64,000 nucleotides of DNA from Arcobacter arenosus (GTDB lineage: Bacteria; Campylobacterota; Campylobacteria; Campylobacterales; Arcobacteraceae). Below, piece after piece: positions 1 to 34,143 of this stretch. A program made the position numbers and the translations under genes. The stretch is taken from positions 62,001 through 126,000 of the forward strand of contig NZ_VANU01000003.1 in NCBI RefSeq assembly GCF_005771535.1. The letters are read 5' to 3'. Position 1 is the first letter of the stretch. Every line of letters starts with the position of its first letter. A model generated the notes under the pieces. That model did no database searches and was not told the origin of the DNA. It was given only the letters and a program-made list of their open reading frames with translations.

Positions 1-2
1 AA

Positions 3-1801: not shown

Positions 1802-1818
1802 GTGAAATACTTAAGAAC
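1794..1818. terminator. Bidirectional hairpin between response regulator and pqqE
   Basis: A perfect 10-bp inverted repeat (GTTCTTAAGT / ACTTAAGAAC) with a 5-nt loop contains both stop codons of the convergent genes. The U-tract on the plus side is weak (GGTTTTATTTT further on). Confidence 0.6.
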
Positions 1819-3200: not shown

Positions 3201-3927
3201 TTTCATAACCTTCAATATTGAAATATGGTGGTCTTTTTAATTCGTATGCCAAATATAAAGCATCACACATAGTCCAAAGTATATCAAGTTTAAACTGTAA
3301 AATTTCAAAAGCTTTATTTTGAAGTTCAACTGTATTAAACTCTTCTAAAGTGATTGAAAGTCCATGTTGAACATCTCTTCTTGCTTCACTTAATCTTTTT
3401 TGAAAATATCTTAAACCTTTTGCTTCAATCCATGGATAATTATCTGGCCATGTATTTAATCTTTGTTGATGAATTTGAGGTGCAAACATCTCAGTTAAAG
3501 ATGACATTGCAGCTTCTTTCCAAGGTCTTTGTTTTGCAAAGTTAATATAAGCATCTACTGCAAATTTAACTGCAGGTAAAACATATTTATGTGAAATTAA
3601 ATCCTCTTTATTTAATCCCACTGCTTCACCTAATTCAAGCCAAGCTTCAATTCCTCCACCAACACTATCATGGTCAGTAATTCTATCAATCCATTTTCTT
3701 CTATCTTCTAGTGGTGGATTATTTGACATAATCGCTGCATCTTTAATTGGTATTGCTGTTTGATAATAAAACCTATTTGCTACCCAACCTTGAATTTCCT
3801 CTTTTGTACACTCGCCTTTATACATTCTAATATGAAAAGGATGGTGAATATGATACATATCACCCATACCTCTTAGTTTTGCTTCAAACTCTTCTTTACT
3901 TAATAATTCACTCATTTTTTTTGTCAT
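3169..3927 (-). CDS. pqqC: Pyrroloquinoline-quinone synthase PqqC
   Basis: 252 residues, the normal length for this cofactorless oxidase, which carries out the final ring closure and eight-electron oxidation to PQQ. The family-typical stretch [12 protein letters not shown] and the helix [13 protein letters not shown] followed by [12 protein letters not shown] are present. It is preceded by an AGAAGAAG-type ribosome binding site. The enzyme needs oxygen, so PQQ synthesis in this organism should require at least microaerobic conditions (family knowledge). An ~80-bp gap separates it from pqqB. Confidence 0.97.
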
Positions 3928-4007
3928 TCTTCTTCTCCTTTTTTATTAATCCCTTTTAAAATGCAAATTTTAAAAGATTAAGCTTTTGGGCTTTAAGAAT
4001 AAAGCCT

Positions 4008-5020: not shown

Positions 5021-5095
5021 TTACTTTGTACAAATATACATAGTAACTTCAAAACCAAATCTGTTATCTACGAATGTAGGTGTTTCCCATTTCAT
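5021..5095 (-). CDS. pqqA: PQQ precursor peptide PqqA (24 residues)
   Basis: A 24-codon gene read directly from the sequence: it starts MKWETPTF and ends TMYICTK. Glu16 and Tyr20 are in the E-x3-Y arrangement that PqqE crosslinks and that becomes the backbone of PQQ. The N-terminal MKW start is typical of the family. A very strong ribosome binding site (AAGGAGG, about 6 bases before the ATG) fits the need for large amounts of precursor. It lies 31 bp after the alcohol dehydrogenase stop and just before a terminator hairpin. It is short enough to be missed by gene callers. Confidence 0.96.
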   Translation of the reverse strand: MKWETPTFVDNRFGFEVTMYICTK

Positions 5096-5126: not shown

Positions 5127-6905
5127 CTATTTTTTAAATAGTTTAAATACGTGAACAGTTCCACCTTGGTTGATGTTCTTAATAAGTTTTGCAACTTCAC
5201 CACCCCATAAAGGAACAGCTCCACCCCAACCTGAAACGATTGCTATGTATTGCTCACCATTTTGCTCCCAAGTAATTGGAGAAGAAACAATTCCTGAACC
5301 AGCATTGTATTTAAATAAAATTTCACCAGTTTCATCATCAAATGCTAAGAATTTACCTTCAGGAGTTCCTGTAAATACAAGTCCACCAGCAGTAGTTAAA
5401 ACTCCACCCCATAGTGGTGCAGGGTTTTTATATTCCCATTTGATTTTTCCAGTTAAAGGCTCAATTGCTTTAAGTGAACCAATGTGATCTTCGAAAATTG
5501 GTTTAATTGTAAATCCAGCACCTAAGTAAGCAGCACCTTTTTTATACGAAATTGGTTGATTCCAAATATCCATTCCCCACTCATTTGAAGGAACATAGAA
5601 TAATTCAGTTTTCTTAGAATAAGCCATTGGCATCCAGTTTTTACCACCTAAGAATGAAGGAACAGAGAATACTGCCTTACCTTTTGAAGCATCACCAGGA
5701 TTTCCAGGTCTTCCATCAGGAGTTAACATTGGTCTACCGTTTTTATCAATTCCAGTTGCCCAAGTAATATTTGAAACAAATGGATTTGCAGTAATAAACT
5801 TACCATTAGTTCTGTCTAATACATAGAAGAAACCATTTCTATCTGCAGTTGCAGCATATTTTTTACCATCTTTATTAAATGAAACTAACTCATTAACACC
5901 ATCGAAATCCCATCCATCATGTGGAGTTGTTTGATAATGCCAAACAATTTTTCCTGTATCAGGATTAATTGCTAATCTTGAAGAAGAGTATAAGTTATCC
6001 CCTGGTCTATTGTGTGAATTCCATGGTGCAGGGTTTCCTGTTCCGAAGAATAATAAATCAGTCTCAGAATCATATGTTCCACCAAGCCAAGTTGCAGCTC
6101 CACCAGTTTCCCATAAATCTCCAGGCCATGTTTTACCAGCTTCACCACCAGTAATTCCATTTTCTTTTCCATTTAAGTAACCCATGTGACCTTCAACAGT
6201 TGGTCTAGTCCAAATAAGTTTACCAGTTTTAGCATCATACGCTTCAACTTTTCCAACAATACCAAATTCACCACCAGCTACACCAGTGATAATCATATCT
6301 TTAACAACTAATGGAGCAGCAGTAATTGAGTAACCATCTTTATATTCTGCTACTTTTTTCTTCCATACTGTTTTTCCAGTTTTTCTATTTAATGCAACTA
6401 ATTTAGCATCTAATGTTCCAAAAATTACTAAATCACCATAAATTGCAGCACCTCTATTGATAACATCACAACAAGGTAAAATTCCACTTGGAAGTCTTGC
6501 ATCATATTGCCATAACTCTTCACCTGTAGCTAAATCAATTGCATACATTCTAGAATAAGAAGCAGTTACATACATAACACCATCTTTTACTAGTGGTTGA
6601 GATTCTTGTCCTCTTTGTTTTTCTCCACCAAATGAGAAATTCCATACAGAAACTAAATTTTTAACAGTCTCTTTATTCACCTGAGTCAGAGGTGAAAATC
6701 TTTGACCATTTTGTCCATGTCCATATGTTAAAACATCCCCAGTTGTTTTATCATCATTTAAAATTTCATCATATGATACAGGTGCATATGATGGTTTTGT
6801 AACCATAGATTTGTCATTCATCGTAGTGTTACTAGTTGCACATCCACTAATTAATGCAGAAAGTGTAACAGCTACTGCACTAGTTAGTAAAAAACTCTTT
6901 TTCAT
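5127..6905 (-). CDS. PQQ-dependent alcohol dehydrogenase, lipoprotein, lanthanide-type metal site
   Basis: 592 residues. A lipoprotein signal peptide ends at C22 (LISGC), so the enzyme is anchored and periplasmic. An eight-bladed quinoprotein propeller follows, with the vicinal disulfide C145-C146 (LPCCDV). By alignment to methanol dehydrogenases the metal ligands are E213 (GGEFG), N291 (GTGNPAPWN) and the catalytic D333 in HDGWDFDG. The additional D335 two residues later is the hallmark of lanthanide-dependent XoxF/ExaF/PedH enzymes; calcium enzymes have Ala, Ser or Thr there. There is no cytochrome domain, so electrons probably go to the PedF-type cytochrome encoded at 18531. The substrate (methanol, ethanol or a longer alcohol) cannot be read from sequence. 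Its promoter carries the shared GCTA repeat. Confidence 0.93.
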
Positions 6906-6950: not shown

Positions 6951-6982
6951 AGTATATATGAGAAAAGTAGCAACAGTTTAGC
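6951..6982 (-). promoter_or_regulatory. adh promoter with 11-bp GCTA direct repeat
   Basis: On the minus strand: GCTAAA-N5-GCTACT-N9-TATACT. The half-sites are at 6977-6982 and 6966-6971 and the -10 at 6951-6956. The distal half-site overlaps the end of the upstream permease gene. No -35 consensus is needed because the repeat occupies that position, as at PhoB-type promoters. About 45 bases separate the -10 from the dehydrogenase start. Confidence 0.75.
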
Positions 6983-7760
6983 TATTATTAACTTTTTTTG
7001 ATTTGAACCCTAAAAATGCCATAATTAAAGTTATAACTAGAGATATTACTAGTACTAGAAGTGCCTGTACATCGACCTTTAAGTAAAGTGAGAACCTAAT
7101 AGATTCTACTATATAAGTAAAAGGATTATATGAAGAAATTTCATATAAAAGTATAGAAGAATCTTTAATTTTCCAAAGTGGGTATAAAGCTGAACTTAAA
7201 AAGAACATTGGAAAGATAACAAAGTTCATCACCGTTGCAAAATTTTCCAATTGTTTTATAACTGAAGAGATAAAAAGTGCAAAAGCATTAAGAATTATAG
7301 ATGAGATTATAATAATAGGAATGGTTACTACTATTGCTAAATATGAAATATCCACACCATAAAATTTTGCAATTAATAAAAAAGTGATTGCTTGTATTGT
7401 TGAAACAATTGAGGTTGCAAACATTTTACAAAAAAGTAAGAAATTTCTATTTATATAAGAAGATAAAAGTATTTTCATACTTCCCATTTCCCTATCAAAT
7501 ATCATAGTTAAACTACTTTGCATACCATTAAAAAGTAACACCATCCCAACAAGTCCAGGAACTATATATGTTTCATAGGTAATATAAGTTTCATATGGAG
7601 GTGTAATTGCAAGGCCTAAAGCTGTTTTAAACCCAACGGAAAAAATAAACAACCAAAGTAAAGGTCTAACAAGAGCTGAGAAGAATCTACTTTTTTGTTT
7701 AACAAATCTAATTAACTCTTTGTAGATAATACCTTTCATACAATTAAAATATATATTCAT
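6978..7760 (-). CDS. ABC-2 type transporter permease, quinoprotein system
   Basis: 260 residues with six predicted membrane segments and the ABC-2 permease pattern (IVPGLVGMVLLFNGMQSSLTM, then an ...SFNPFTY-like SSYNPFTYIVESIR motif near the end). It pairs with the ATPase gene immediately upstream, which ends 2 bp before it. Such ABC-2 exporters are conserved beside PQQ alcohol dehydrogenases in proteobacteria, and the transported substrate is not established. An internal Met at 7739 (MKGIIYKE) could be the true start. Confidence 0.88.
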   Translation of the reverse strand: MNIYFNCMKGIIYKELIRFVKQKSRFFSALVRPLLWLFIFSVGFKTALGLAITPPYETYITYETYIVPGLVGMVLLFNGMQSSLTMIFDREMGSMKILLSSYINRNFLLFCKMFATSIVSTIQAITFLLIAKFYGVDISYLAIVVTIPIIIISSIILNAFALFISSVIKQLENFATVMNFVIFPMFFLSSALYPLWKIKDSSILLYEISSYNPFTYIVESIRFSLYLKVDVQALLVLVISLVITLIMAFLGFKSKKVNNS

Positions 7761-7762
7761 GG

Positions 7763-8485
7763 TTATTTTACAATTTGATTGAAAGTATCAACCAAATTCT
7801 CCTTTTGATATTTTTCCATAATAGAACTAACAATGCCATTTTCTACAATTTTACCATTTTTGATAAATGAAATTTCATCATCTTCATTTACCTCATCAAA
7901 AAGGTGGGTAATCCAAAGAACACTTAATTTTTCCCTTTTTACTAAATCTCTGACATACTCTAAAATATCAAATCTACTTTTTAAATCAAGTCCAACTGTA
8001 GGTTCATCAAGTAAAAGTAGTTTTGGCTTGTTTATTAAAGCTCTTAAGATTTCAACTCTTCTTCTATGTCCACCGTTTAGTTTTCTAGCTGTAGTATCTA
8101 AATGTGGTTTTAGTTCAAGTCTTTCAATCTCATTTTCAATAGATTTTATTGTTTGAACAAAACCTAATCCTTTTAAAGAACCATAATAATACAAATTTTG
8201 TCTAACAGTTAAATCTAAATCTAAAGTTGGTTCTTGAAAAACAATACCTATATTTTTTAAAGCTTCACTATAGTTTTTTATGGAGTGATTATTTATATTG
8301 ATTTCACCAACTTCAAGTTTAAGTAGTCTAGTTATAAGTGAAAAGATAGTTGATTTTCCAGCTCCATTAAGTCCTAATAAAACCGAAAATTCACCTTTTT
8401 TTATATTAAAAGAAACCTTATTTAATACTTGTTTTTTTCCATAGGAAAACTCTACGTCTTTTAATTCTAAAATCTTTTCACTCAT
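7763..8485 (-). CDS. ABC transporter ATPase, PQQ-dependent alcohol dehydrogenase system
   Basis: 240 residues. Walker A is GLNGAGKST and Walker B is LLLLDEPTVGLD. The signature is LNGGHRRRVEI instead of LSGGQ; I recall this variant as characteristic of the ATPase subfamily tied to PQQ alcohol dehydrogenase clusters. It lies between the beta-propeller gene (16-bp gap) and its permease, so the three form one operon. It energises export of an unidentified molecule or assembly of the oxidation machinery. Confidence 0.9.
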   Translation of the reverse strand: MSEKILELKDVEFSYGKKQVLNKVSFNIKKGEFSVLLGLNGAGKSTIFSLITRLLKLEVGEININNHSIKNYSEALKNIGIVFQEPTLDLDLTVRQNLYYYGSLKGLGFVQTIKSIENEIERLELKPHLDTTARKLNGGHRRRVEILRALINKPKLLLLDEPTVGLDLKSRFDILEYVRDLVKREKLSVLWITHLFDEVNEDDEISFIKNGKIVENGIVSSIMEKYQKENLVDTFNQIVK

Positions 8486-8501
8486 ATTTATCCAAGTTTT
8501 T

Positions 8502-9464
8502 TTATTTTGAAGGAATTACTGCTAATCCCCAAGGATATCTTCCAACTTTTATTGTCTTTTCTACTTTTAAAGAATCAACATCTATAACAGATACATCACC
8601 ACTTACACCATTTGTAGTATAAAGTTTTTTCTCATTTTGAGCAAAATCTAATTGCCAAACTCTTTTTCCAACTAATAAATATTTAATTACTTTATAAGTT
8701 TTTGCATCAATTACAGCGACATGATTAGCTGGTCCTAAAGCTACAAAGGCATATTTTCCATCACTTGTTAGTTTAATACCAACTGGCTGAATTAAATCTT
8801 TAAAAATTCCAGGTATTTTAAAACCTAATTTTGCAACACTCTCTTTTGTTTTTGTATTTACAACAACAATAGTTCCACCAATTTCAGATGAAGCCCATAT
8901 CATATCACCATTTTTTGAAAATTCAATATGTCTTGGTCTTTGATCAACTAAAGTATTATGAATGATTTTTTTTGTTTTTGTATCAATCCAATGTAAAAAA
9001 TTTGATGTTTCAGATGTATTAATAGCTACACTTCCATCTGGACTTACAGCCATTCCTTCAGGTTCTAAACCAACTTCAATTTGAGAAATAACAGCTTTTT
9101 CAACAGTATCTACAACTGTTACAATTCCATCATTTTCATTTGATATATAAAGCTCTTTCCCATCTGGATGAAGTGCAAATTGTTCTGGGTCTTCACCCGA
9201 TGGTAAATTATATAAAATCTCACCTGTTTTAGTATCCATAGCTTGAACTGTGTCATCATCACTAGCACAAATATATAGTTTTGAGTAATCTTTTGTAAGT
9301 AAAATACCTCTAGGTCTTTGCCCTACTTCATATGTTTTTACAACTTTGTTTGTAACTGAATCAATTACACTAATAGTGTTATCTTTTTCATTTGATACAA
9401 ATATTGTGTCTGCATTCAAAATAGACGCAGTTAAAATAGATGTTAAAATTAATTTCTTCATCAC
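8502..9464 (-). CDS. YVTN beta-propeller protein of PQQ alcohol dehydrogenase cluster
   Basis: 320 residues with a signal peptide (MMKKLILTSILTASILNA). At least six repeats of the pattern V-I-D-xx-T-xxV-xxxxxVGxxPxGxxxxxDGxxxY build a seven-bladed propeller in the periplasm. Proteins of this type are recurrent neighbours of PQQ dehydrogenases together with the ABC-2 exporter, and their role is not established. No PQQ- or heme-binding motif is visible. It is second in the operon starting at 9905. Confidence 0.9.
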   Translation of the reverse strand: MMKKLILTSILTASILNADTIFVSNEKDNTISVIDSVTNKVVKTYEVGQRPRGILLTKDYSKLYICASDDDTVQAMDTKTGEILYNLPSGEDPEQFALHPDGKELYISNENDGIVTVVDTVEKAVISQIEVGLEPEGMAVSPDGSVAINTSETSNFLHWIDTKTKKIIHNTLVDQRPRHIEFSKNGDMIWASSEIGGTIVVVNTKTKESVAKLGFKIPGIFKDLIQPVGIKLTSDGKYAFVALGPANHVAVIDAKTYKVIKYLLVGKRVWQLDFAQNEKKLYTTNGVSGDVSVIDVDSLKVEKTIKVGRYPWGLAVIPSK

Positions 9465-9485
9465 GAATTCCCTTTTAATAAAAAT

Positions 9486-9905
9486 TTATTCAACAATAAA
9501 TGTAGCTCTTTCTCTATCACTTTTAGCTGATGGTAAGCCTAATGTATAAGTTCCTGGTTTAATAGGGATAAAAGTCATTTCAATTTCACCTTCATCATCA
9601 AATTCAAATCCATCTAAACCTAATGGTCTTACTTCAATATCATTAATAGATACTTGATTTACCCAAATATTTCTAAAAAATTCTGCCCCTACAATTGGAA
9701 TTTCCCTTGAACCATCACTTTTTAAAACAAGTTCATAATATTTACCAGCTTCTAACTTATATGGTTCACTTGCAAGTGGTTGACCTACACTAATAGTAAT
9801 AGGAGTCAGTTTAGTTTTAGAATGTAACAAACCCTTTAAATTTTTTGCAAATGCAAACTCCCCTGATATAAGTAGCATAGCTACTAGTAATAGAATTTTC
9901 TTCAT
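9486..9905 (-). CDS. Small secreted beta-rich protein, quinoprotein cluster
   Basis: 139 residues with a clear signal peptide (cleavage after AFA). The mature part is rich in beta strands and the C-terminal pattern PIKPGTYTLGLP resembles cupredoxin-like or immunoglobulin-like folds, but the Cys/His/Met copper ligands are missing. I do not recognise the family. It is the first gene of the operon with the propeller and ABC-2 transporter, and is driven by a promoter with the shared GCTA repeat. A structural or chaperone role in the periplasm is possible. Confidence 0.75.
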   Translation of the reverse strand: MKKILLLVAMLLISGEFAFAKNLKGLLHSKTKLTPITISVGQPLASEPYKLEAGKYYELVLKSDGSREIPIVGAEFFRNIWVNQVSINDIEVRPLGLDGFEFDDEGEIEMTFIPIKPGTYTLGLPSAKSDRERATFIVE

Positions 9906-9934
9906 ACATAATCCTTTTTTAATTTAATTTTTAA

Positions 9935-9966
9935 ATTGTAATGAAGCTTTATAGCTAGAATATAGC
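9935..9966 (-). promoter_or_regulatory. Promoter with GCTA direct repeat, leftward operon
   Basis: Minus strand: GCTATA-N5-GCTATA-N9-TACAAT, half-sites at 9961-9966 and 9950-9955 and -10 at 9935-9940. It drives the secreted protein, propeller and ABC-2 genes. It is divergent from the next site and mirrors it. Confidence 0.75.
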
Positions 9967-9989
9967 ATATTGATTTTTATTCTCATTTT

Positions 9990-10021
9990 GCTAGATTGAG
10001 GCTATACTTCTTATATATACT
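9990..10021 (+). promoter_or_regulatory. Promoter with GCTA direct repeat, rightward operon
   Basis: Plus strand: GCTAGA-N5-GCTATA-N9-TATACT, half-sites at 9990-9995 and 10001-10006 and -10 at 10016-10021, 30 bases before the start at 10052. A second TATAAT at 10029-10034 could act as an alternative -10. Confidence 0.75.
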
Positions 10022-10051
10022 TCTAGAATATAATCAAAAAAGGAATATCAA

Positions 10052-11197
10052 ATGAAACAACTATTTAGTTTATTTTTAATGTTAAGCTTCGTAAATGCCT
10101 TTACATTAGAAGTAAATATTTTATACCTAGAACAAAAGATAAAAAAACCTCCTGTGCTTTCAAATATAATTGAAGATCCTGAAGATTTAGGTCTAAAAGG
10201 GGCACAAAAAGCGATAATTGATTCAAATAAAAGTGCAAGATTCTTAAATCAAAAATATAATCTAATTGAAAAAATTTCATACGATAAAGAACAATTAAAA
10301 AAAGATTTTGAAGAGTTTATAAATGCAGGTAACTCTTATGTGGTATTAAATGTTGAAGATGATTTTTTAAAAGTGTTACTAAACAACCCACTTTCAAAAA
10401 AAGTTTTAATGGTAAATGCAAGTAGTCCAACTACATCTTTGCGGCAAAACTATTGTTTACCAAATTTACTTCATACAGCTCCTTCAAATGCTATGCTTTA
10501 TGATGGCTTAGTACAATTTTTAGTAAAAAGAGATTTTAAAGATATCTTTTTAATTAGTGGAGAAAATGAAAAAGATAAAGAGATATTAAAAGATATAAAA
10601 AGAGCAGTTAAAAAGTTTAATGCAAAAATTGTAAAAGAAAAGATTTGGGATAATAATAGTGATATCAGAAGAAAAGCAAATGCAGAATTTCCAGTATTTA
10701 CACAAGCAAATGATTATGATTTAATTGTTTTAGCTGACCATTATGGAGATTTTGGTGAGTTTATGTATTTTAATACCTGGCTTCCAAGACCAATTGCAGG
10801 AACACAAGGATTAACTCCAACTGCTTGGCATAAAGTTATTGAAGCATGGGGAGCAGCTCAAATGCAAAGTAGATTTGAAAAGTTTGCAAAAAGATGGATG
10901 CAATCAAAGGATTATACAAACTGGACAGCTGTTAGATCAATCATTGGTGCCATTACAAAAACAAATAGTGCTGATTTAAAAACAAATTTAGATTTTATTC
11001 ACTCAGATAAGTTTGATTTAGCAGCTTATATGGGAAGAAAACTATCATTTAGAGAATATAATGGACAATTAAGAATGCCTATCTCATTAGTTCAGCCAAG
11101 AGCTTTAATCACAACTTCACCACAAATTGGGTTTTTACATCCTAAAACAGATTTAGATACTTTGGGTATTGCACCCTTTGAGATGAAGTGTAAATAA
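10052..11197 (+). CDS. Periplasmic binding protein of PQQ alcohol dehydrogenase system
   Basis: 381 residues with a signal peptide (ending VNA). The fold is that of ABC substrate-binding proteins of the branched-chain amino acid type (about 20-260: ILYLEQK start, NDYDLIVLADHYGDFGEFM), extended by a C-terminal part with WTAVRSIIGAIT and LSFREYNGQLRMPISLVQ. This combination matches the substrate-binding-protein family defined by its association with PQQ alcohol dehydrogenases. The family has no dedicated importer here; it probably works with the ABC-2 pair encoded divergently. Its stop overlaps the start of the DUF302 gene by one base. Confidence 0.88.
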   Translation: MKQLFSLFLMLSFVNAFTLEVNILYLEQKIKKPPVLSNIIEDPEDLGLKGAQKAIIDSNKSARFLNQKYNLIEKISYDKEQLKKDFEEFINAGNSYVVLNVEDDFLKVLLNNPLSKKVLMVNASSPTTSLRQNYCLPNLLHTAPSNAMLYDGLVQFLVKRDFKDIFLISGENEKDKEILKDIKRAVKKFNAKIVKEKIWDNNSDIRRKANAEFPVFTQANDYDLIVLADHYGDFGEFMYFNTWLPRPIAGTQGLTPTAWHKVIEAWGAAQMQSRFEKFAKRWMQSKDYTNWTAVRSIIGAITKTNSADLKTNLDFIHSDKFDLAAYMGRKLSFREYNGQLRMPISLVQPRALITTSPQIGFLHPKTDLDTLGIAPFEMKCK

Positions 11198-11652
11198 TGA
11201 TTAAATCTTTTTTTACACTTATCATTCTTACTTTAAGTATAAATGCTTATGAGATAATAGATAATGATAATAACTTTATAGTGAAAATACAAAATAAAAA
11301 TTTTTATGAACTATATGTGAATCTAAAAGATGAAATAAATTTTAATTCATATGTAATAGTTCATGAATTAAATTTAGCAAAGTCTACTAAAGCTGTTGCT
11401 GATGCATTAGAAGAAAAAGCTGTTGTAAAAAATGGGATAAATCTTCTAATTTGCAAAACCTCATTTACCCTTAAAATGCATCAAGAAAATATTCATAATA
11501 TGAGTTTTTGCCCGATGGTCATTTCTGTATATGAAGATAATAATTCAAATTATATATCTTTTAGGAAATATCACCCACTAAATGAAAATGACAAAATAGC
11601 ACTTACTATAAATAAAAGATTAAAAACATTAATTTTAAACTCCCTTGATTAA
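11197..11652 (+). CDS. DUF302-family secreted protein
   Basis: 151 residues with a signal peptide (MIKSFFTLIILTLSINA). The DUF302 pattern is recognisable: a FVIVHELNLA-like strand (here YVIVHELNLA), a KNGINLLICK stretch with one Cys, then CPMVISVYE. DUF302 proteins have an alpha/beta fold without known catalytic activity and are frequent beside sulfur-carrier and quinoprotein genes. It is translationally coupled to the binding protein upstream (TAATG). Function unknown. Confidence 0.8.
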   Translation: MIKSFFTLIILTLSINAYEIIDNDNNFIVKIQNKNFYELYVNLKDEINFNSYVIVHELNLAKSTKAVADALEEKAVVKNGINLLICKTSFTLKMHQENIHNMSFCPMVISVYEDNNSNYISFRKYHPLNENDKIALTINKRLKTLILNSLD

Positions 11653-11738
11653 AAAACTTTCACTTTAATTAGAAAATTACTTTAAATTACTATTTAAATA
11701 TATAATAATATAATAGTTCCAGTCATAGGGAGAAAATT

Positions 11739-13865
11739 ATGAAAAATAATTTAATAATACTATTAATAATTATTAGCTTCTCGATATTTTTATTTCTAAC
11801 TTTAAATATAGAAAAAAATAATGTAACAAATATAGAAAAAAAAGTTACTAAACCCAAGATTGAATTAAAACTTGCCCATAATCTACCAGAGAATAGTGCC
11901 TTACATGAAGCTTCTGTTTTATATGCAAAAAAAATTGCTGAACTTACAAACAATAAAGTAAAAATCAATATCTTTCCTAAACAAGAATTAGGAAATGATT
12001 ACCAAATGATAGAACTTGCAAGTCAAGGTAAAATAGATATTATAGTAACCCCAACTGCAAAAATGAGTGTATCAGTTCCCTCAATGCAATATGCAGACTT
12101 GCCATTTTTATTTCCAACAAGAGAGGATGCCTATGAACTTTTAGATGGGGAAGTGGGTAAAATGATTCTAAAAGATTTAGACAAAATTGACCTTTTAGGA
12201 GTTGCCTTTTGGGAAAATGGTTTTAAACATTTTACTGCAAACTCAAAATTAATTAGCCCAAAAGATTTTGAGGGTAAAAAAATTAGAGTTATGAAAAGTA
12301 GAATTATAATGGAACAATTTAAAGCTTTGGGGGCACAAGCAATTCCTATTGATTTTCATTCTACAAAAAAAGCCTTAGAAGATAAGGTTGTAGATGGTCA
12401 AGAGAACCCTTTAGTTGCAATTGTAAACATGCAATTTCATAAGGTTCAGTCACATTTAACAATTAGCGAACATGCTTATTTACCATACGTATTTACAATG
12501 AGTAAAAAAAGTTTGCGAAAAATGCCCATAGAGATTCAAAATATTTTAACTACTAGTTTAGATGAAATTACAAAATGGGAAAGAGAGGAAACCCAAAGAA
12601 GGGAAAAAGAGTTTCTTGAGACAATAAAAAATGAAGGTGTAAAAATACACTATTTAACAAAAGAAGAGAAAGAAGTTTTTAGAAAAAAAACTAAATATAT
12701 TATAAAAATGTATGAAAGAGTAATTGGTTCACATATAATTTCAAAAACAGAAGAGATATTGAATAAAAAATATGGTGAAACAGAAGATATATATTTTGGT
12801 TTAGATGTAAATCTTTCAGTTGGAAATAAAGACTCAGGATTATCTTTAAAAAGAGGAGTAGAGTTAGCAATTGATGAGATTAATTCAAATGGTGGATTAT
12901 TGGGTAAAAGGGTCAATCTTTTAGCTAAAGATAATGAAGCAATTACTACTAAGGCTTTGAAAAATTTTAAAGAGTTTTCAGAAAATGAAAATGTGAAAGT
13001 AGTAATAGGTGGCAAAAAAAGTTCAATAATTTCAAAAGAATTAGAAGATATTCAAAAAAGTAAAAAACCTTATTTTTCACCTTGGGCATCTGCTGATAAA
13101 ATAGTTAATAATGGTTATGAAGAAAACTATATTTTTAGAGTTTCTACAAATAATAAATTTATTATAAATAAACTTTTAAATGAATCTTTAAAAGAGGATA
13201 AAAACCCAATAATAGTTGTTGAAAATTCTATTTGGGGAAGAGGTGCCTTGGAACTTATAAAACAAGACAAGAAAGAGTTTAACTTTCTTATTATAAACCA
13301 AGGTCAAACTAATTTTAGTAATTTGATATCTCAAATAAAACAAAATAATATAAAATCAATGTTAATGGTTTTAAATACTTTAGAAGCATCAAATATTTTA
13401 AAAACCCTAAATGAAAATAAAATAAAGATGTCAATATCTTCACATTGGGGTATTTTAGGTGGAGATTTTTATGAAAAAAATAAAGAGTATCTTACAAATA
13501 TTGATTTGAAATTTATTCAATCTTTTAGTTTTTACAAAAATAAATCAAAAAAAGCAAAAGAGTTTGGATTTAGATATATAAAAAAATATGCAGAAAACTC
13601 AATTTTTGATATATTATCTCCATCCTCTGTTGCACAAGCATATGATTCTACTATGCTAATTGCACAAGCAATAAAAGATGCTAATTCCTTTGATGGAGAA
13701 AAAATAAAAGATGCCTTAGAAAATTTAAAAGAGTATAATGGCTTAATAAAAAAATATATAAAACCATTTAGTAAGACTGACCATGAAGCTTTAGAAAAAG
13801 ATGACTTTTTCTTTGCAAAATATAATGAAGAAGGGAAAGTGATTCCAATAGGTAAATTAAAATGA
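11739..13865 (+). CDS. Fused TRAP (DctP) and ABC type-1 solute-binding protein
   Basis: 708 residues. After an N-terminal membrane/signal segment (about 5-23), residues ~45-335 are a TRAP-type DctP binding domain (LAHNLPENSALHEAS, GKKIRVMKSRI, DGQENPL). Residues ~345-700 are a Peripla_BP_6 domain of the branched-chain amino acid binding type (GVELAIDEINSNGGLLGKRVNL). No TRAP QM subunits or ABC permeases are nearby. It overlaps the following histidine kinase by 4 bp. I infer a periplasmic two-ligand sensor partner of that kinase and not a transporter component. Its promoter region (11653-11738) lacks the GCTA repeat. Confidence 0.88.
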   Translation: MKNNLIILLIIISFSIFLFLTLNIEKNNVTNIEKKVTKPKIELKLAHNLPENSALHEASVLYAKKIAELTNNKVKINIFPKQELGNDYQMIELASQGKIDIIVTPTAKMSVSVPSMQYADLPFLFPTREDAYELLDGEVGKMILKDLDKIDLLGVAFWENGFKHFTANSKLISPKDFEGKKIRVMKSRIIMEQFKALGAQAIPIDFHSTKKALEDKVVDGQENPLVAIVNMQFHKVQSHLTISEHAYLPYVFTMSKKSLRKMPIEIQNILTTSLDEITKWEREETQRREKEFLETIKNEGVKIHYLTKEEKEVFRKKTKYIIKMYERVIGSHIISKTEEILNKKYGETEDIYFGLDVNLSVGNKDSGLSLKRGVELAIDEINSNGGLLGKRVNLLAKDNEAITTKALKNFKEFSENENVKVVIGGKKSSIISKELEDIQKSKKPYFSPWASADKIVNNGYEENYIFRVSTNNKFIINKLLNESLKEDKNPIIVVENSIWGRGALELIKQDKKEFNFLIINQGQTNFSNLISQIKQNNIKSMLMVLNTLEASNILKTLNENKIKMSISSHWGILGGDFYEKNKEYLTNIDLKFIQSFSFYKNKSKKAKEFGFRYIKKYAENSIFDILSPSSVAQAYDSTMLIAQAIKDANSFDGEKIKDALENLKEYNGLIKKYIKPFSKTDHEALEKDDFFFAKYNEEGKVIPIGKLK

Positions 13866-15586
13866 TTAAACTTAAACCGATAAAAAATAGTATAAAAAAT
13901 AAAATCATAATTCAATTTACCCTTATAATATCTGTTTTTTTATTGCTAATCTCTTTTTCTATAGGATATTTATTTATCAAAAACACAGAATCCCATGCAC
14001 AAGATTTATTAAAAAATAGAGCCTTATTAATTGAGGAAAAAATACAAGAAAGACTTTATTATCTTATAGAACAAACAAAACTTCTTGCAAAAAATTCACT
14101 GATGATTAATTCTTTAATCGATGATGATAATAAAGAAGAATACCTTTTACCATTAGCTTTAAATTTTATGGAAGATAAAAATGTAAAATATCTAAATATT
14201 ATAGATTTTGATGGAGAGATAATATTTAAAACTACAGAAAATATTCCAAAATATAATAACTCAATATACATTAGAAATGCACTAGCCTTAGGACAAACAA
14301 CATTTTATTTAGAAAAAAATAAAAATGAATTTATTGTAGTTTCACCTGTAAAATATTATGAAACAACGCAAGGAGCTTTAATAGCTACTTTTAATCTTGA
14401 TAAAATTTTAAGTAAATATATAATTAACTCAAATGATGAATATATTGAGATACTAGATACGCAAAATGACAAACTTTTATATATAAATAATCATGATAAA
14501 AATCAAAAATATTACTCGTATAGTCTAAAAAATCAAAATTTATCACTTTTTGATGAATTAAATATTACTTTAAATATCGGGAAATTAGAATCAACATACT
14601 TATTTCCAATACAAGATGCTTTAAAAAAAGTGATTATTATGAGCTTTATCCTAATTTTAATAGGAACTTTACTCTCTTATTTATTAGCTGAATCAATCAC
14701 TAAACCTATTATAGAACTATATAAAAAGATAGAAAATAATGAATTTAATGAAAAATATCAACCTTTAGGTACAAATGATGAGTTAGAGGTTTTATCTTTA
14801 GCTTTCCATGAAAAAGTAAAACAATTAAATCAATTTAAAAATGAAGAATTAGAGAACCAAAAACTTTTACTTGAACAGTCAAAAATGGCAGCATTGGGTG
14901 AAATGATTGGAAATATTGCCCATCAATGGAGGCAACCTTTATCTGTTATATCAACTGCTTCAAGTGGCTTGAAAATGAAACAAGAATATGGAATTTTAGA
15001 AGAAGATGAGATGTTTTCTGTTCTTGATTCTATTAACGAAAACACTCAATACCTATCAAAAACAATTGATGACTTTAGAAACTTTATTATTGGGAAAAGG
15101 GAAAAGAGACTATTTAATTTAAGTGAACAAATAGATAGTTTTTTATCTTTAATGATAGGCAGTATAAAAACACATGATATACATCTAATACGTAATGAAC
15201 AAACAAATATTGAAATCAATGGATATCCAAATGAATTAACACAATGTTTAATGAATATAGTTAATAATTCAAAGGATGCTTTTGAAGAAAAAGGGATAAA
15301 GGAAAAGTATATTTTTATAAAAACATATACCAAAAACTCTTCAATATTCATAGAGATTAAAGACAATGCAGAAGGTATTAAGGAGGATATAATCCCAAAA
15401 ATATTTGAGCCCTATTTTACAACAAAACATAAATCTAGGGGTACTGGATTAGGACTTAGTATGACATATAGATTAATTACAGAAGGGATGAAAGGGAATA
15501 TAAAAGTAAAAAATACATCTTTTAAATATAAAGACAACAATTATAAAGGGGCAGAATTTACTATTACTCTACCCATAATAAGCTAG
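13862..15586 (+). CDS. Membrane sensor histidine kinase (Cache-like, HAMP, HisKA)
   Basis: 574 residues. Two membrane segments (about 17-40 and 254-276) enclose a ~210-residue periplasmic sensor of Cache type. A HAMP-like linker, a phosphoacceptor box NIAHQWRQPLSV typical of Campylobacterota, and a HATPase domain (NIVNNSKDAFEE, GTGLGLSM) follow. It is coupled to the fused binding protein upstream, which probably delivers ligand to its sensor domain. No response regulator is adjacent, so the partner is elsewhere; the regulator at 1139 already has its own kinase. It ends in a 4-bp overlap with the convergent DUF411 gene. Confidence 0.92.
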   Translation: MIKLKPIKNSIKNKIIIQFTLIISVFLLLISFSIGYLFIKNTESHAQDLLKNRALLIEEKIQERLYYLIEQTKLLAKNSLMINSLIDDDNKEEYLLPLALNFMEDKNVKYLNIIDFDGEIIFKTTENIPKYNNSIYIRNALALGQTTFYLEKNKNEFIVVSPVKYYETTQGALIATFNLDKILSKYIINSNDEYIEILDTQNDKLLYINNHDKNQKYYSYSLKNQNLSLFDELNITLNIGKLESTYLFPIQDALKKVIIMSFILILIGTLLSYLLAESITKPIIELYKKIENNEFNEKYQPLGTNDELEVLSLAFHEKVKQLNQFKNEELENQKLLLEQSKMAALGEMIGNIAHQWRQPLSVISTASSGLKMKQEYGILEEDEMFSVLDSINENTQYLSKTIDDFRNFIIGKREKRLFNLSEQIDSFLSLMIGSIKTHDIHLIRNEQTNIEINGYPNELTQCLMNIVNNSKDAFEEKGIKEKYIFIKTYTKNSSIFIEIKDNAEGIKEDIIPKIFEPYFTTKHKSRGTGLGLSMTYRLITEGMKGNIKVKNTSFKYKDNNYKGAEFTITLPIIS

Positions 15587-15978
15587 TATTTCCCATACTC
15601 TTTGTAACTTTTATCCTCAAAAAGGATATAAACAGTTTTAGGAGTTTTATCATTTTCATAAGCTGGAAGTGATAATCCAATGGCATTTTTAGGTTTTTCT
15701 TTTAAAAAATCTTTTATAGCTTGATAAGGAACATTCCCCTCAAAAACATAATCACCCATTATTGAAGTATTACAAGATTGAATATCATAGGGAATTCCTA
15801 TTTGTCTTTTTAAATTTTTCACATTCATAACAGTAATAATATCAACCTCATTAGCAACTTTTTTCATATCTGTAAACCAAGATTTAGGGCAAGTACTTGT
15901 TGGCGGTTGAAAAACTTGGAGTTTTAAGTCACTTGCAAAAAGTGAAACTGTCAATAAGCAAAAAGCTAAAATTTTCAT
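15583..15978 (-). CDS. DUF411-family secreted protein
   Basis: 131 residues with a signal peptide (ending FASD). It matches DUF411: an N-terminal TCPKSW element, IGIPYDIQSCNT, GDYVFEGNVPYQAIKDFL and KNAIGLSLPAY. Family members usually carry CxCC at the first motif; here only one Cys is left (STCPKSW), so any metal or thiol chemistry would use C of TCPKSW with C of QSCNT. DUF411 proteins are often near copper handling genes. It is the last gene of the SsuABC-like operon and follows the ATPase without a gap. Confidence 0.82.
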   Translation of the reverse strand: MKILAFCLLTVSLFASDLKLQVFQPPTSTCPKSWFTDMKKVANEVDIITVMNVKNLKRQIGIPYDIQSCNTSIMGDYVFEGNVPYQAIKDFLKEKPKNAIGLSLPAYENDKTPKTVYILFEDKSYKEYGKY

Positions 15979-16676
15979 TATAATTCCCCTTTTAAGATAT
16001 TAGGATATTTTTCCAATAGATTATTTTTTATTTGGTCAATATTTTTTATATCAAAACTTTGATTATTAGGATTATTAAACTCTAAAACTATTTTCGCTGG
16101 CTTATTAGAAAAAAACAAAATTCTATTAGAAAATAAAATTGCTTCACTAATATCATGTGTTACTAAGATAACAATTGGTTTAAACTTATTGCATAGTTTT
16201 AGAAACTCTTTTTTTAATTCTTGAGAAGTAGGAAAATCTAAAGAGATAAAAGGTTCATCTAGAAATATCACCTCAGGCTGATTTATAAATGCTCTAGCTA
16301 AGGCTACTCTTCTTTTCATACCACCAGATAAAGCATTGGGATACTTATCTAAAACATCTTCTAAAGCAACTAATTTTAAAATATCATTTATCTCATTTAA
16401 ATCATTAGATTTTGAAACTAATAAAAGGTTATCTTTAATACTAAGCCATGGAAGTAATCTATCATCTTGAAACATAAAAGATATATTTTTATAAGGCATT
16501 GAAATATCACCTTTAAAATCAGTTTCTAGATTAGCTAATAAATTTAAAAAGGTACTTTTTCCACAACCACTAGGCCCTACAATTGATATAAATTCCTCTT
16601 TTTGAATTTTAAATTCTATATCTTCTAAAACTTTTAATTCATTAAAACTTTTATTTTGAATATTTATATTTATCAT
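15978..16676 (-). CDS. ABC importer ATPase, nitrate/sulfonate/taurine type
   Basis: 232 residues. Walker A is GPSGCGKST, the signature LSGGMKRRVALARAF, Walker B VIFLDEPFISLD. The family (SsuB/TauB/NrtD) powers uptake of sulfonates, nitrate or small organic molecules. It lies 1 bp from the permease gene and is coupled to the DUF411 gene. Inclusion in the GCTA-repeat regulon suggests a substrate linked to alcohol oxidation or its metal cofactor, but the substrate is not determined by sequence. Confidence 0.9.
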   Translation of the reverse strand: MININIQNKSFNELKVLEDIEFKIQKEEFISIVGPSGCGKSTFLNLLANLETDFKGDISMPYKNISFMFQDDRLLPWLSIKDNLLLVSKSNDLNEINDILKLVALEDVLDKYPNALSGGMKRRVALARAFINQPEVIFLDEPFISLDFPTSQELKKEFLKLCNKFKPIVILVTHDISEAILFSNRILFFSNKPAKIVLEFNNPNNQSFDIKNIDQIKNNLLEKYPNILKGEL

Positions 16677-16677
16677 C

Positions 16678-17409
16678 TTATTTCCATTCTAACATCTTAT
16701 TTTCTAAGGGTTTTAAAATAGCCATCTCTATAAACATAACAATAAAAATAAAAGCTAAAGAATAAGCTAATATAGAAGTTATATCAAAAAACTGGAAAAA
16801 CATTGAGATTTTAAAACCTATCCCATCACTTCTTCCAAGCAATTCAACAACTAAAACTATTTTCCAAATTAATGATAAAGACAATCTAGCAGAAGCCATC
16901 ATATATGGATAGATTTGAGGTAAGAATACTTTAAAAAACACTTGTTTTTTTGGAACTTTATAAACCTTTGCTAAATCCATATATTTAGTTTCTATTGCTC
17001 TAGTTCCCTCTCTTATATTAACAATTACAATTGGAACTTTATTTATAATCACAGCTAAAAGTGCTGCAAAATCAGTTAATCCAAACCAAATATAACAAAT
17101 AACAATTACAACTAAAGCAGGAATATTTAAACCTAAAACTAATAAAAAATCAAAAACATCATCTATTTTTTTTGATATTCCCATTATAATTCCAATAAAT
17201 ACTCCAATTATCATAGTGATGAAAAATGTTATTACAACTCTAATTAGTGTAATTTTTAAATCATCTAAAAGTTCCCCTTCTACTAAATGTTCAAATAGTT
17301 TTATACCTATATCAACTGATGAAGGGAAAACTTGTGATGCAAGGACAATTGATAAAGCTTGCCAGATAATAATAAAAGCACAAATTGATAATAATCTAGT
17401 TTGTAACAA
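16678..17409 (-). CDS. ABC importer permease, SsuC/TauC type
   Basis: 243 residues with six predicted membrane segments and the EAA-type cytoplasmic loop (LAKVYKVPKKQVFFKVFLPQIYPYMMASARLS). It forms the channel for the binding protein encoded at 17427 and the ATPase at 15978. Confidence 0.9.
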   Translation of the reverse strand: MLQTRLLSICAFIIIWQALSIVLASQVFPSSVDIGIKLFEHLVEGELLDDLKITLIRVVITFFITMIIGVFIGIIMGISKKIDDVFDFLLVLGLNIPALVVIVICYIWFGLTDFAALLAVIINKVPIVIVNIREGTRAIETKYMDLAKVYKVPKKQVFFKVFLPQIYPYMMASARLSLSLIWKIVLVVELLGRSDGIGFKISMFFQFFDITSILAYSLAFIFIVMFIEMAILKPLENKMLEWK

Positions 17410-17426
17410 TACTTTTCCTAATATTT

Positions 17427-18386
17427 TTATTTATTAATTTCCCAAAAAGTTTTAGGGTCTAACTCTTTGCTATTTTTAACTAATTTTTTTCCACCTTGTT
17501 CTTGTAATACCTTAAATATTTTTTTTGAATCTTCAATATTTTTTTCATCAAATTTAAGTATCACACCATTTTTATAACCCTCTTTTAATGAGTTAAAAGT
17601 TGCTTCGTCCTTTACCTTCATAAGTGGTTTTATTCTATCCCATTCTTTATCATCTTTTAACAAGATTTTTTTAGCACTTTTACTTGCATTTATAAATGAA
17701 TCATATAGTCTTGGATCCATGAGAGCTAAATCTCTTCTAAATGTCCATCCAATTAAAGGTATATCTTCAACTATTCCAAAACTTTTAAAAACCTCTTCCA
17801 TTTCAATAAGTGCTCTTGCTCCTTTTGCCTTTGCTTTTGCATTAAAATGCCAAAAGTTCAATGCCCCGTCTAATGAGCCATCAAGTACTTTTTTTAGAAG
17901 TATTGGAGGGGCAGCGAAGGTTGGATTAATAATATCTTTGAAATCTTTGCCATATTTTAATTTACTGTATGCCCTTAAAATAAGCCATGTTTTATCAACA
18001 GGACCTCCAGCAACTCCAATATTTTTTCCTTCTAAATCTAATAAGGTTTTTGCATTATTATTTTTACTAAGATATAAAGTCCCTGTTGCCTTTGAATAAG
18101 GGTAAAGTGTATAATCTCCCCCATTTGCTCGTTGAGTATTTACCCAAACCCAATCTGTAACTATAATATCAACACTTCCAGATTGAAGAGCTATTGATGT
18201 AGCATTTTTTGAAGCTAATTTAACAACTTCAAGTTCAAAACCATTTTTAATATCAAGTTTATTATGTTTTAAAACATCTAATTCCCAATTAACAGTTCCA
18301 AAGGCTAAAACACCCACTTTTAATTTTTCCAAAGCATGTAAATTTGTAAACAAAAAACAAATTGTTAAAAATATGATTTTAAACAT
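17427..18386 (-). CDS. ABC substrate-binding protein, NMT1/SsuA type
   Basis: 319 residues with a signal peptide (ending LHA). The fold is of the NMT1/THI5-like or SsuA type (LKVGVLAFGTVNWELDVLKHNKLD, SGSVDIIVTDWVWVN, GKNIGVAGGPVDKTW). It captures the ligand of the importer in the periplasm. The residues that define sulfonate or nitrate specificity cannot be assigned by eye. It is the first gene of a four-gene operon whose promoter carries the GCTA repeat, divergent from the cytochrome operon. Confidence 0.88.
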   Translation of the reverse strand: MFKIIFLTICFLFTNLHALEKLKVGVLAFGTVNWELDVLKHNKLDIKNGFELEVVKLASKNATSIALQSGSVDIIVTDWVWVNTQRANGGDYTLYPYSKATGTLYLSKNNNAKTLLDLEGKNIGVAGGPVDKTWLILRAYSKLKYGKDFKDIINPTFAAPPILLKKVLDGSLDGALNFWHFNAKAKAKGARALIEMEEVFKSFGIVEDIPLIGWTFRRDLALMDPRLYDSFINASKSAKKILLKDDKEWDRIKPLMKVKDEATFNSLKEGYKNGVILKFDEKNIEDSKKIFKVLQEQGGKKLVKNSKELDPKTFWEINK

Positions 18387-18412
18387 CTATCTACCTTTTA
18401 ATTATTTTTTAT

Positions 18413-18444
18413 ATTGTATATCAAGTAAATAGCATCAATTTAGC
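18413..18444 (-). promoter_or_regulatory. Promoter with GCTA direct repeat, SsuABC-like operon
   Basis: Minus strand: GCTAAA-N5-GCTATT-N9-TACAAT, half-sites at 18439-18444 and 18428-18433, -10 at 18413-18418, 26 bases before the start at 18386. The -10 is identical to that of the 9905 operon. Confidence 0.75.
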
Positions 18445-18465
18445 ATAAAAAAAGTTTTTTCAATT

Positions 18466-18497
18466 GCTATAATCAAGCTATAGAAACACCTTATAAT
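18466..18497 (+). promoter_or_regulatory. Promoter with GCTA direct repeat, cytochrome operon
   Basis: Plus strand: GCTATA-N5-GCTATA-N9-TATAAT, half-sites at 18466-18471 and 18477-18482, -10 at 18492-18497, 33 bases before the chosen start at 18531. This is the best match to the consensus among the five sites. Confidence 0.8.
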
Positions 18498-18530
18498 TCC
18501 ATCATGCAAAAAATTTCGCAAAGGATATAC

Positions 18531-18950
18531 ATGAATAAAATCGAAAAATTAACACTTGCAGTTTTGTTTTCTGCAATAACTGCATTTGGGCATGGAAGTG
18601 TTACACCACAAAAAGTTGACACAACAGGTTTAAAACAATTAGGTGATACTTGGGTATCAGAGAACCCATATAGTACAGATAATCCAAAAGCTGTAGAGAT
18701 TGGAAGATCTGGATATAGTGAAAACTGTGCAAGATGTCACGGACTTGACGTTATCTCTGGTGGTATTGCACCTGATTTAAGAGAATTAGATAAGTTTGAA
18801 GATGAGTACTTTTTAGGAAAAGTATTAAGTGGTGTTACAAGAAATGGTAATGTTTATATGCCTTCGTTTGCTGATGTTTTAAGTCAAGAAGCAATTTGGG
18901 CAATTAGAACATATATTATGGATAGAAGAGCAAAAGACGGCATAGAGTAA
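18531..18950 (+). CDS. Cytochrome c-550, PedF type
   Basis: 139 residues from the ATG at 18531, preceded by AAAGGAT; an upstream in-frame ATG at 18504 would add nine residues and sits too close to the -10. A signal peptide ends around AFGHG. One heme site (ENCARCHGLD) is present, with GGIAPDLR after it and a distal Met in VYMPSFADVLS. The N-terminal VTPQKVDTTGLKQLGDTW is characteristic of PedF, the electron acceptor of quinoprotein ethanol-type dehydrogenases. It should take electrons from the dehydrogenase at 5127 and pass them to the respiratory chain. First gene of a four-gene operon. Confidence 0.93.
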   Translation: MNKIEKLTLAVLFSAITAFGHGSVTPQKVDTTGLKQLGDTWVSENPYSTDNPKAVEIGRSGYSENCARCHGLDVISGGIAPDLRELDKFEDEYFLGKVLSGVTRNGNVYMPSFADVLSQEAIWAIRTYIMDRRAKDGIE

Positions 18951-18954
18951 TATC

Positions 18955-19824
18955 ATGAAAATTCTTAGATTATCAGTTTTATTTGCACTTTTAATAGTTT
19001 TTGCAAATGCAAGAAGTATTGAAGAGATTCAAGAAAGTGGTTATATAACTATTGCCGTTTATAAAGATTTTCCACCTTACTCATTTACAGAAAACAATGA
19101 GATAAAAGGGATAGATGTAGAGTTAGGTAAACTACTTGCAAAATCTCTTAAGGTAGAAGCAAAATGGCAATTGACAGGTTCAGATGAATCCTTAGCTGAT
19201 GATTTAAGAATTAATATTTGGAAGGGCAATCTAATTCATAAAAACTATGCAGACGTAATGTTTAGAGTTCCATACGATTATGATTATTTAAGATTAAGAG
19301 ATAAACAAACAGGTGAACTTGAAACAGATATGGTTTCTATTAAAGGGCCTTATCATAGTGAAAAATGGGTAATAGCAACACACAAGGAAAAAATTCCAAA
19401 GATAACAACTTTAGGAATTTTTGCTTACCATACCATAGGAGTTGAATTAGATACCCTTGCAGATAACCATTTAACAGGATTTGCAAGAGGTTTAATTAAT
19501 AAAAATGTTAAACACTATTTTCACTTTAAAGATGCAATAAAAGATTTCAAAGAGGGAAAACTTGATGCAATTGCTGGATTAAAATCTCAATTGGAGTATC
19601 TATTAGATTTTAACAACAATAAAGATAAGTTTTATATGACAACAAAAATTCCTCAAGCAAAATCACACTGGGATATTGCAACGGCAGTTCATACTAGTTA
19701 TAGACCACTAAGTTATCATATTGATGGATTAATTTCTGAAAATTATGAGAATAGAAATATTAAAAAAATATTTGAAAAGTTTGGAGTTAATTATTTACCC
19801 CCAATAGCAAGAACACAACAATAA
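18955..19824 (+). CDS. Quinoprotein-associated binding protein (MxaJ/XoxJ-like)
   Basis: 289 residues with a signal peptide (ending ANA). It is a family-3-type solute-binding fold (ITIAVYKDFPPYSFTENNEIKGIDVELGK) with the long insertion and C-terminal pattern of the MxaJ/XoxJ group found with PQQ dehydrogenases (DVMFRVPYDYDYLRLRD). These proteins are thought to help activate or assemble the dehydrogenase and not to transport solutes, though this is not settled. It starts 4 bp after the cytochrome stop. Confidence 0.9.
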   Translation: MKILRLSVLFALLIVFANARSIEEIQESGYITIAVYKDFPPYSFTENNEIKGIDVELGKLLAKSLKVEAKWQLTGSDESLADDLRINIWKGNLIHKNYADVMFRVPYDYDYLRLRDKQTGELETDMVSIKGPYHSEKWVIATHKEKIPKITTLGIFAYHTIGVELDTLADNHLTGFARGLINKNVKHYFHFKDAIKDFKEGKLDAIAGLKSQLEYLLDFNNNKDKFYMTTKIPQAKSHWDIATAVHTSYRPLSYHIDGLISENYENRNIKKIFEKFGVNYLPPIARTQQ

Positions 19825-19837
19825 AAAAGGAGTTGTC

Positions 19838-20581
19838 ATGAAAAGTATACTCATTTTCGCTACATTAATTCTAACAATGTTAAACCTAGAAGCAAAGAAT
19901 CCTATAGTATCTCCCACTTTTGATGATATAATCAAAATTACTATTGGCGAGGATGAGTATACCTTTGATGACAAAAATATTCAAGTAAAGGTACCCTCTT
20001 TTGCTGATAATCCTGTCCAAGTTCCAATTTTTGTTGATGCATCAAAAATAAAAAATCCTAAAAAGATGATTCTTTTTGCTGATTTAAATCCTATACCTGT
20101 TATTTTAACAATGACACCAAATGATTTTCTACCAATTATCTCAACAAATATAAAAGTTGCACAAGAAACCCCTTTAAGAGCATTAGTTTTAGACGAGAAC
20201 AATTTATGGCATGTAGGAAGTGCAAATATTCATAGTAATGGTGGAGGATGTGACGTAACAAGTTTAGCTGCTGCTAATGGAAATGTTTCAGAAAACATAG
20301 GAAAAAGTAAAGGGAAAATATTTGATAAAAAAGATCAAAAAAGAGTTAAATTCTCAATATTTCACCCTATGGAAACGGGATTAGTTTTTGGAGCTAGTTC
20401 ATTTTTTATAAATAAGATTGAGATAAAAGATGAAAATGACAAACTTTTAACTACATTAGATACAAGTGCAGCAATCAGTGAAAATCCAAGAATAACATTA
20501 GAAACAAAAAAAGAATTTAAAGAATTAAATATTAATTTTTTAGATACTGATGCAAATCATTTTGAGTTAAATATAAAATGA
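19838..20581 (+). CDS. Quinoprotein-associated SoxYZ-like carrier
   Basis: 247 residues with a signal peptide (ending LEA). The N-terminal half resembles SoxY, including a swinging-arm-like GGGC (SNGGGCDVTSLA); the C-terminal half resembles SoxZ (VKFSIFHPMETGLVFG, FINKIEIKDENDKLL). In thiosulfate oxidation the SoxY cysteine carries sulfur; in this fused, quinoprotein-linked family the cargo is unknown. The arm Cys is followed by about 95 residues, so it is internal and not C-terminal as in SoxY. Overlaps the metallohydrolase gene by 4 bp. Confidence 0.9.
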   Translation: MKSILIFATLILTMLNLEAKNPIVSPTFDDIIKITIGEDEYTFDDKNIQVKVPSFADNPVQVPIFVDASKIKNPKKMILFADLNPIPVILTMTPNDFLPIISTNIKVAQETPLRALVLDENNLWHVGSANIHSNGGGCDVTSLAAANGNVSENIGKSKGKIFDKKDQKRVKFSIFHPMETGLVFGASSFFINKIEIKDENDKLLTTLDTSAAISENPRITLETKKEFKELNINFLDTDANHFELNIK

Positions 20582-34134: not shown

Positions 34135-34143
34135 AAGCAAAAA

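Follow-up and report, generated by a model that had tools for sequence, protein, structure and literature searches.

The paired GCTA repeats found before several operons in a stretch of Arcobacter arenosus DNA (64,000 nucleotides, positions 62,001 to 126,000 of contig NZ_VANU01000003.1; hereafter the window, whose own numbering is used) are very likely the operators of one two-component system. In this system, a kinase with a FIST sensor domain would signal to an OmpR/PhoB-type response regulator, termed here RR-A, which would activate a regulon for alcohol and acetaldehyde metabolism. The architecture of the sites, their conservation, their co-occurrence with RR-A, and their loss along with it are seen in the sequence; from these we infer binding, phosphorylation, activation, and an inducer. 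An earlier note on the window had described five promoters with a rigid 11-bp GCTA repeat and had proposed that they form a dedicated regulon, with the regulator encoded at 1139, which is RR-A, as the likely activator. All five promoters are exact in coordinates, strand, and spacing, and the comparative tests given below (conservation, and loss with the regulator) support the predicted regulon and RR-A as its putative activator.

The exact pattern GCTA-N7-GCTA-N11-TANNNT, which ends in the -10 hexamer, occurs 6 times in the 64-kb window, compared with 0.01 matches expected in shuffled sequence, and all 6 of the window's GCTA pairs with an N7 spacer carry TANNNT at the same offset. The -10 hexamer lies 26 to 45 bases from the likely target start codon, which fits the expectation for real promoters. 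The genome-wide scan that the note had suggested returns 11 matches in 3.1 Mb and 0 with the reversed pattern; one match (G000:C2:229989) has no fitting gene start after it and is probably due to chance. Within the genus, 5 to 13 matches per genome are present in 16/16 genomes, with 0 or 1 for the control. The sites are also kept across the family before orthologous genes, and the possibility raised in the note, that the motif is equally common before unrelated genes, was not borne out, since the sites are not spread over such genes.

The same spacing is recovered from loci that were picked by the encoded RR-A protein rather than by the motif. In 20 such loci from many genera (324 kb), the distances between GCTA pairs on the same strand peak at 11 bp (85 pairs vs a background of about 4 at other distances), with harmonics at 22 bp (38) and 33 bp (22). 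Two repeats are present in 45 of the 58 arrays, four in 11, six in one, and three in one. The even copy number fits putative head-to-tail dimers; most of the four-copy arrays, however, come from a single orthologous promoter and do not count as independent cases. In 50 of the 58 arrays, the first base of TANNNT lies exactly 15 bp past the start of the last GCTA, compared with 1.9 expected. Computationally, then, the operator takes the position of the -35 element, in fixed phase to the -10, and its direct-repeat half-sites have the 11-bp period of OmpR/PhoB operators. Six tandem 11-bp GCTA repeats stand before a porin-like gene (L145, 799-874), at the standard distance from TATAAT.

Two classes of sites can be distinguished among the matches from across the genus. 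Class A (consensus approximately GCTAWA-T-CA-R-GCTATAWW, 82 distinct sites) is found at the pyrroloquinoline quinone (PQQ) locus and its partners. Class B (approximately GCTAY--T--T-GCTAY, 41 distinct sites) precedes the phosphate acetyltransferase gene (pta), a DUF4212/sodium-symporter operon, an amino-acid ABC binding protein, and a small RNA. The classes differ at positions 6, 10, and 11; position 6 is A in 77/82 class A and 0/41 class B sites, and position 11 is T in 10/82 and 41/41, respectively, figures for which the class A set had been cleaned beforehand of four B-like sites (including those at 6951 and 18413 in the window), so that a little of the contrast arises by construction.

Of 104 Arcobacteraceae genomes, 62 encode an RR-A orthologue and 42 do not. 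Strict class A sites are present in 52/62 of the former and 0/42 of the latter, while a control pattern gives 0 everywhere (Fisher test, 7e-20, with kinship ignored). The target genes might of course vanish along with RR-A, and this confounder was addressed with 14 genomes that lack RR-A and retain the acetaldehyde dehydrogenase and 15 that retain a close FAD oxidoreductase. At the acetaldehyde dehydrogenase promoter, GCTA pairs are present in 20/20 loci with RR-A vs 0/10 of the loci examined without it; some of the former were first fetched through the motif, and among those fetched by protein alone (L126-L145), 12/12 carry the array. At the FAD oxidoreductase promoter, GCTA pairs are found in 0/12 of the loci examined in genomes lacking RR-A; the corresponding set from genomes with RR-A had been picked by motif and was left out as evidence. 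These results show that the sites vanish with the regulator even where the target gene stays. Thus, genomes that have lost RR-A serve as natural knockouts.

RR-A is encoded at 1139..1801 (+) and is the proposed activator of class A promoters. Its receiver (PF00072, E=2e-24) is joined to a winged helix (PF00486, Trans_reg_C, E=2e-9), which was the sole DNA-binding domain matched in the domain search, with no LuxR-type domain. The gene lies directly after that of the FIST kinase, which in turn is divergent from a gene for an ExaC-type acetaldehyde dehydrogenase just outside the window. The kinase reading frame listed at 87 is only the 3' part (1..1142, +) of a longer gene, which has its start some 750 bp before the first base of the window and encodes a 630-aa FIST-FIST_C-HisKA-HATPase sensor kinase without a transmembrane segment. 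The trio of kinase, RR-A, and acetaldehyde dehydrogenase, together with a GCTA array, is kept in three relatives (G001, G002, G003) with no PQQ locus seen beside it. In another genome, a class A site precedes a further FIST-domain protein (L174, G007:C16:5329), which suggests that in some genomes, the FIST sensor family itself belongs to the regulon. The window also holds a second cluster with a FIST-like protein, kinases, and response regulators (37706-46199).

The genomes encode a paralogue, RR-B, whose identity to RR-A is mostly 51-56%. It is encoded after a kinase, HK-B, with dCache_2 / sCache_2, HisKA, and HATPase_c domains, and in 19/20 loci chosen by protein, an exact class B site lies beside it. 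The class B pattern averages 0.4 matches in ten genomes that lack both of these close regulators vs 3.7 in G000-G051. The recognition helix, IDN[A/P]TIRAE[V/I][N/S]R[V/L]KK, is nearly alike in 28 RR-A and 24 RR-B orthologues, invariant at most positions among the 28, and unlike that of other OmpR-type regulators found in the same genomes. Consistent differences between the two proteins at residues 187, 193, 194, and 196 are candidates for the discrimination of class A from class B; they include A187/P187 and N194/S194, and the corresponding candidates in the DNA are bases 6, 10, and 11 of the site. Thus, although the GCTA repeat taken by the note as the mark of the alcohol regulon is present at its promoters, it is common to the acetate regulon of RR-B as well, and the bare motif is not diagnostic.

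Taken together, these findings have led to the following model. The cytosolic FIST-domain histidine kinase would phosphorylate RR-A, which would dimerise and contact a pair of GCTA half-sites in head-to-tail arrangement, with one half-site every 11 bp. Sitting where the -35 element would otherwise be, this dimer would recruit RNA polymerase to a good -10 located 15 bp after the last GCTA start; on arrays of four or six repeats, two or three dimers would line up in tandem. A single pathway would then comprise all of the targets: the PQQ alcohol dehydrogenase and the genes for its cofactor, transporter, and cytochrome, the ExaC-type acetaldehyde dehydrogenase, the FAD oxidoreductase, and the ethanolamine ammonia-lyase of some relatives. 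Because acetaldehyde is common to the breakdown of ethanol and ethanolamine, this compound or a closely tied cytosolic signal is put forward, tentatively, as the cue for the kinase. If so, FIST would act as a cytosolic sensor of alcohol/aldehyde metabolism, which would give a role to a poorly understood sensor.

The site spacing fits that of activators that replace the -35 element, and RR-A is consequently proposed to be an activator. A repressor whose operators block polymerase at the -35 position would also have operators that overlap this region, and some of the -10 boxes are the consensus TATAAT. However, the fixed 15-bp phase is typical of activators that touch sigma, and a repressor needs no such phase; furthermore, PceP, an OmpR-type regulator of Sulfurospirillum with similar sites, has been argued to be an activator (PMC7755780). 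Repression by RR-A is therefore unlikely. Next to no credence is given to the idea that such repeats occur as a matter of course in housekeeping promoters, or that they are a mobile repeat. It is generally known that promoters of this bacterial class are AT-rich and periodic, but the site counts (about 11 in 3.1 Mb and 0 for the reversed control) rule this explanation out, and the sites precede the same genes at differing genomic places with variable spacer bases.

The near identity of the recognition helices raises the question of which regulator reads which site. RR-B might bind all of the GCTA repeats, with RR-A as a local passenger or modulator, and the exact repeat beside nearly every RR-B locus and the class-B-like proximal halves of two window sites would agree with this. 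Yet many genomes that lack RR-A retain RR-B and class B sites and have no class A site, the arrays are lost at acetaldehyde dehydrogenase genes retained in such genomes, and the two classes differ at three positions; control by RR-B throughout is thus quite improbable. A refinement of the RR-A model, rather than its opposite, is that both proteins would bind, with a preference of RR-A for class A sites and of RR-B for class B sites; hybrid arrays would then integrate alcohol and acetate signals. The array before the acetaldehyde dehydrogenase of the window genome begins with two class-B-like repeats and ends with two class-A-like ones. In genomes that lack RR-A, the promoter of this gene often keeps a single GCTA, correctly spaced from the -10 and with class-B-like surroundings, which suggests a handover to RR-B. 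However, the arrays are pure class A in many genomes, and joint binding is rated somewhat short of an even chance. A broader form of this idea comes close to evenly balanced: RR-A (alcohol/aldehyde, class A) and RR-B (acetate, class B) may read the same half-site with the same period, a few spacer bases and the length of the array may keep the two separate or mix them by design, and promoters may pass from one regulator to the other upon the loss of RR-A. If true, the use of alcohol and aldehyde would be linked to that of acetate through one promoter code, and the pair would provide a clean case in which to see how regulators that arose by duplication and share a helix and a half-site separate their targets.

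It should be noted that several points weigh against the assignment of the regulon to RR-A and its FIST kinase. The co-occurrence counts ignore phylogeny, most genomes without RR-A belong to a few clades, and the strict class A pattern was itself derived from genomes that have RR-A. Ten genomes with RR-A have no strict match, the loci of several of them showing relaxed ones, and some relatives (G092, G093, G099) lack a site immediately upstream of the alcohol dehydrogenase. Within the window, the 6951 and 18413 sites are A/B hybrids with a class-B-like proximal half. In addition, weak -35 elements are normal in this bacterial class, and the missing -35 is consequently only modest evidence for activation. 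Finally, another kinase of the locus (13862-15586) could feed RR-A as a second input. It belongs to a pair (11739-15586, +) in which a DctP domain fused to a Peripla_BP_6 domain is followed by this membrane histidine kinase, which has no partner regulator; the pair lies inside the PQQ locus and was not seen in the relatives' PQQ loci that were read.

The target operons of the window are arranged as follows. The GCTA promoter at 6951..6982 (-; -10, TATACT) overlaps the 3' end of pedC, has orthologous sites at the same place in six relatives (G006, G007, G016, G047, G051, G083), and precedes the PQQ alcohol dehydrogenase and pqq genes. These encode a PQQ-dependent dehydrogenase of the methanol/ethanol family (5127..6905, -), whose D-x-D motif (WDFDG) is the lanthanide-type residue pattern; the PqqA precursor (5021..5095, -), a 24-aa peptide, MKWETPTFVDNRFGFEVTMYICTK, with E-x3-Y, which was missing from the list of reading frames; and an operon (1811..4940, -) whose reading frames are syntenic with their orthologues and which we take from family knowledge to be pqqE, pqqD, pqqC, and pqqB. 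A divergent pair of class A promoters follows. The first, at 9935..9966 (-; TACAAT), serves an ABC-2 operon resembling the Ped transporter (6978..9905, -; small secreted protein, beta-propeller, ATPase, and PedC permease), and the second, at 9990..10021 (+; TATACT), serves the PQQ-alcohol-dehydrogenase-associated ABC binding protein and the small gene after it (10052..11652, +). In Pseudomonas, the Ped transporter genes, counterparts of these PedC-type genes, specify a lanthanide transporter (PMC12997753). A second divergent pair consists of the GCTA promoter at 18413..18444 (-; TACAAT), whose orthologues in relatives are class A, before an operon for an SsuABC-like ABC transporter and a small protein (15583..18386, -), and the class A promoter at 18466..18497 (+; TATAAT) before the operon for the cytochrome c-550 PedF, an MxaJ-like protein, SoxYZ, and a SoxH-like protein (18504..21483, +).

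The conserved class A targets are the acetaldehyde dehydrogenase, the PQQ dehydrogenase, both divergent operon pairs, and the FAD oxidoreductase. In G013, the last of these genes is a neighbour of pqqE, whereas in the window genome and others, it lies far away from the locus; it keeps its class A site at these differing places, and the site thus follows the gene. EutB of ethanolamine ammonia-lyase is a class A target in G016 and G045, and NosR-like proteins and porins are targets in other relatives. EutB, PedF, and ExaC-type identities were obtained for the targets, the ExaC model giving 822 bits on the acetaldehyde dehydrogenase, just under its cut-off of 900 bits.

Activators of the PhoB/OmpR type bind head-to-tail repeats of 11 bp that stand in for the -35 element. 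RR-A resembles them in its receiver and winged helix and in repeats of this kind that replace the -35, and it differs in its GCTA half-site, its helix, IDN(A/P)TIRAE(V/I)(N/S)R, and its arrays of 2, 4, or 6. PceP, which like RR-A is an OmpR-type regulator from the same bacterial class, binds in gel shifts to three direct CTATA repeats that overlap the -35 and recur every 11 bp, has a reported consensus of CTATW-N17-CTATW, and is reported to be 46% identical to an unnamed regulator of Arcobacter ebronensis (PMC7755780). However, PceS/PceP responds to tetrachloroethene through a membrane kinase. The class A half-sites GCTAWA and GCTATA are compatible with CTATW, a comparison made with the published consensus rather than with the PceP sequence; a search for that sequence through the dehalogenase family PF13486 gave 0/298 genomes, and it was uninformative because its controls also gave 0. 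The orphan regulators CosR, CemR, and HsrA of Campylobacteria are likewise OmpR-type and present in the same genomes. They were rejected as the regulator because the CosR-like sequences, presumably CosR orthologues, carry another recognition helix, TPNVIEVAINQIRQKM; the CemR paper gives no binding motif.

The target set is that of Pseudomonas (PQQ alcohol dehydrogenase, PedF, Ped transporter, ExaC-type acetaldehyde dehydrogenase). There, the Ped/Exa regulators AgmR/ErbR and PedS2/PedR2 are LuxR-type (PMC12997753, PMC6115532), and the cluster has a FIST-family protein, NosP, with a soluble kinase beside it (PMC12997753), whereas in the present system, a single protein combines FIST with the kinase, and the regulator is of the OmpR type. 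No Arcobacter PQQ, FIST, or lanthanide regulon was found in the open-access literature searched, subscription papers being outside its scope. The kind of regulation is thus known, and RR-A, its operator, its regulon, and the RR-A/RR-B pair were not found described in that literature. The result is a predicted regulon for the metabolism of alcohol and aldehyde, probably with a link to lanthanides, which has base-level operators and a named regulator and comes from a family for which the searched papers report no such regulon.

The RR-B system, like CrbS/CrbR, would control genes for acetate use; CrbS is an SLC5-STAC kinase, whereas HK-B is a dCache kinase without SLC5-STAC, and RR-B is OmpR-type. 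In the window genome, an acetate-type system comprises the dCache kinase, RR-B, DUF4212, and a sodium symporter (L082, 4444-8992, G000:C1), and others of the class B sites are located ahead of phosphate acetyltransferase and close to another symporter. The sixth site of the window (34207..34238, -), absent from the note's five, is of the class B type and is a predicted target of RR-B rather than RR-A. It precedes a conserved small RNA (approximately 34137-34201, -) between kefB-like and bioF-like genes, for which an Rfam search of the window gave no match. Within the genus, this RNA has a near-invariant stem-loop, CACCUACUAAUUAAACGUCCUUCAUAGUAGA, followed by a terminator of varying sequence, and its loop, CGUCCUU, complements AAGGACG in the phosphate acetyltransferase leader of some relatives (L013, L021, L035).

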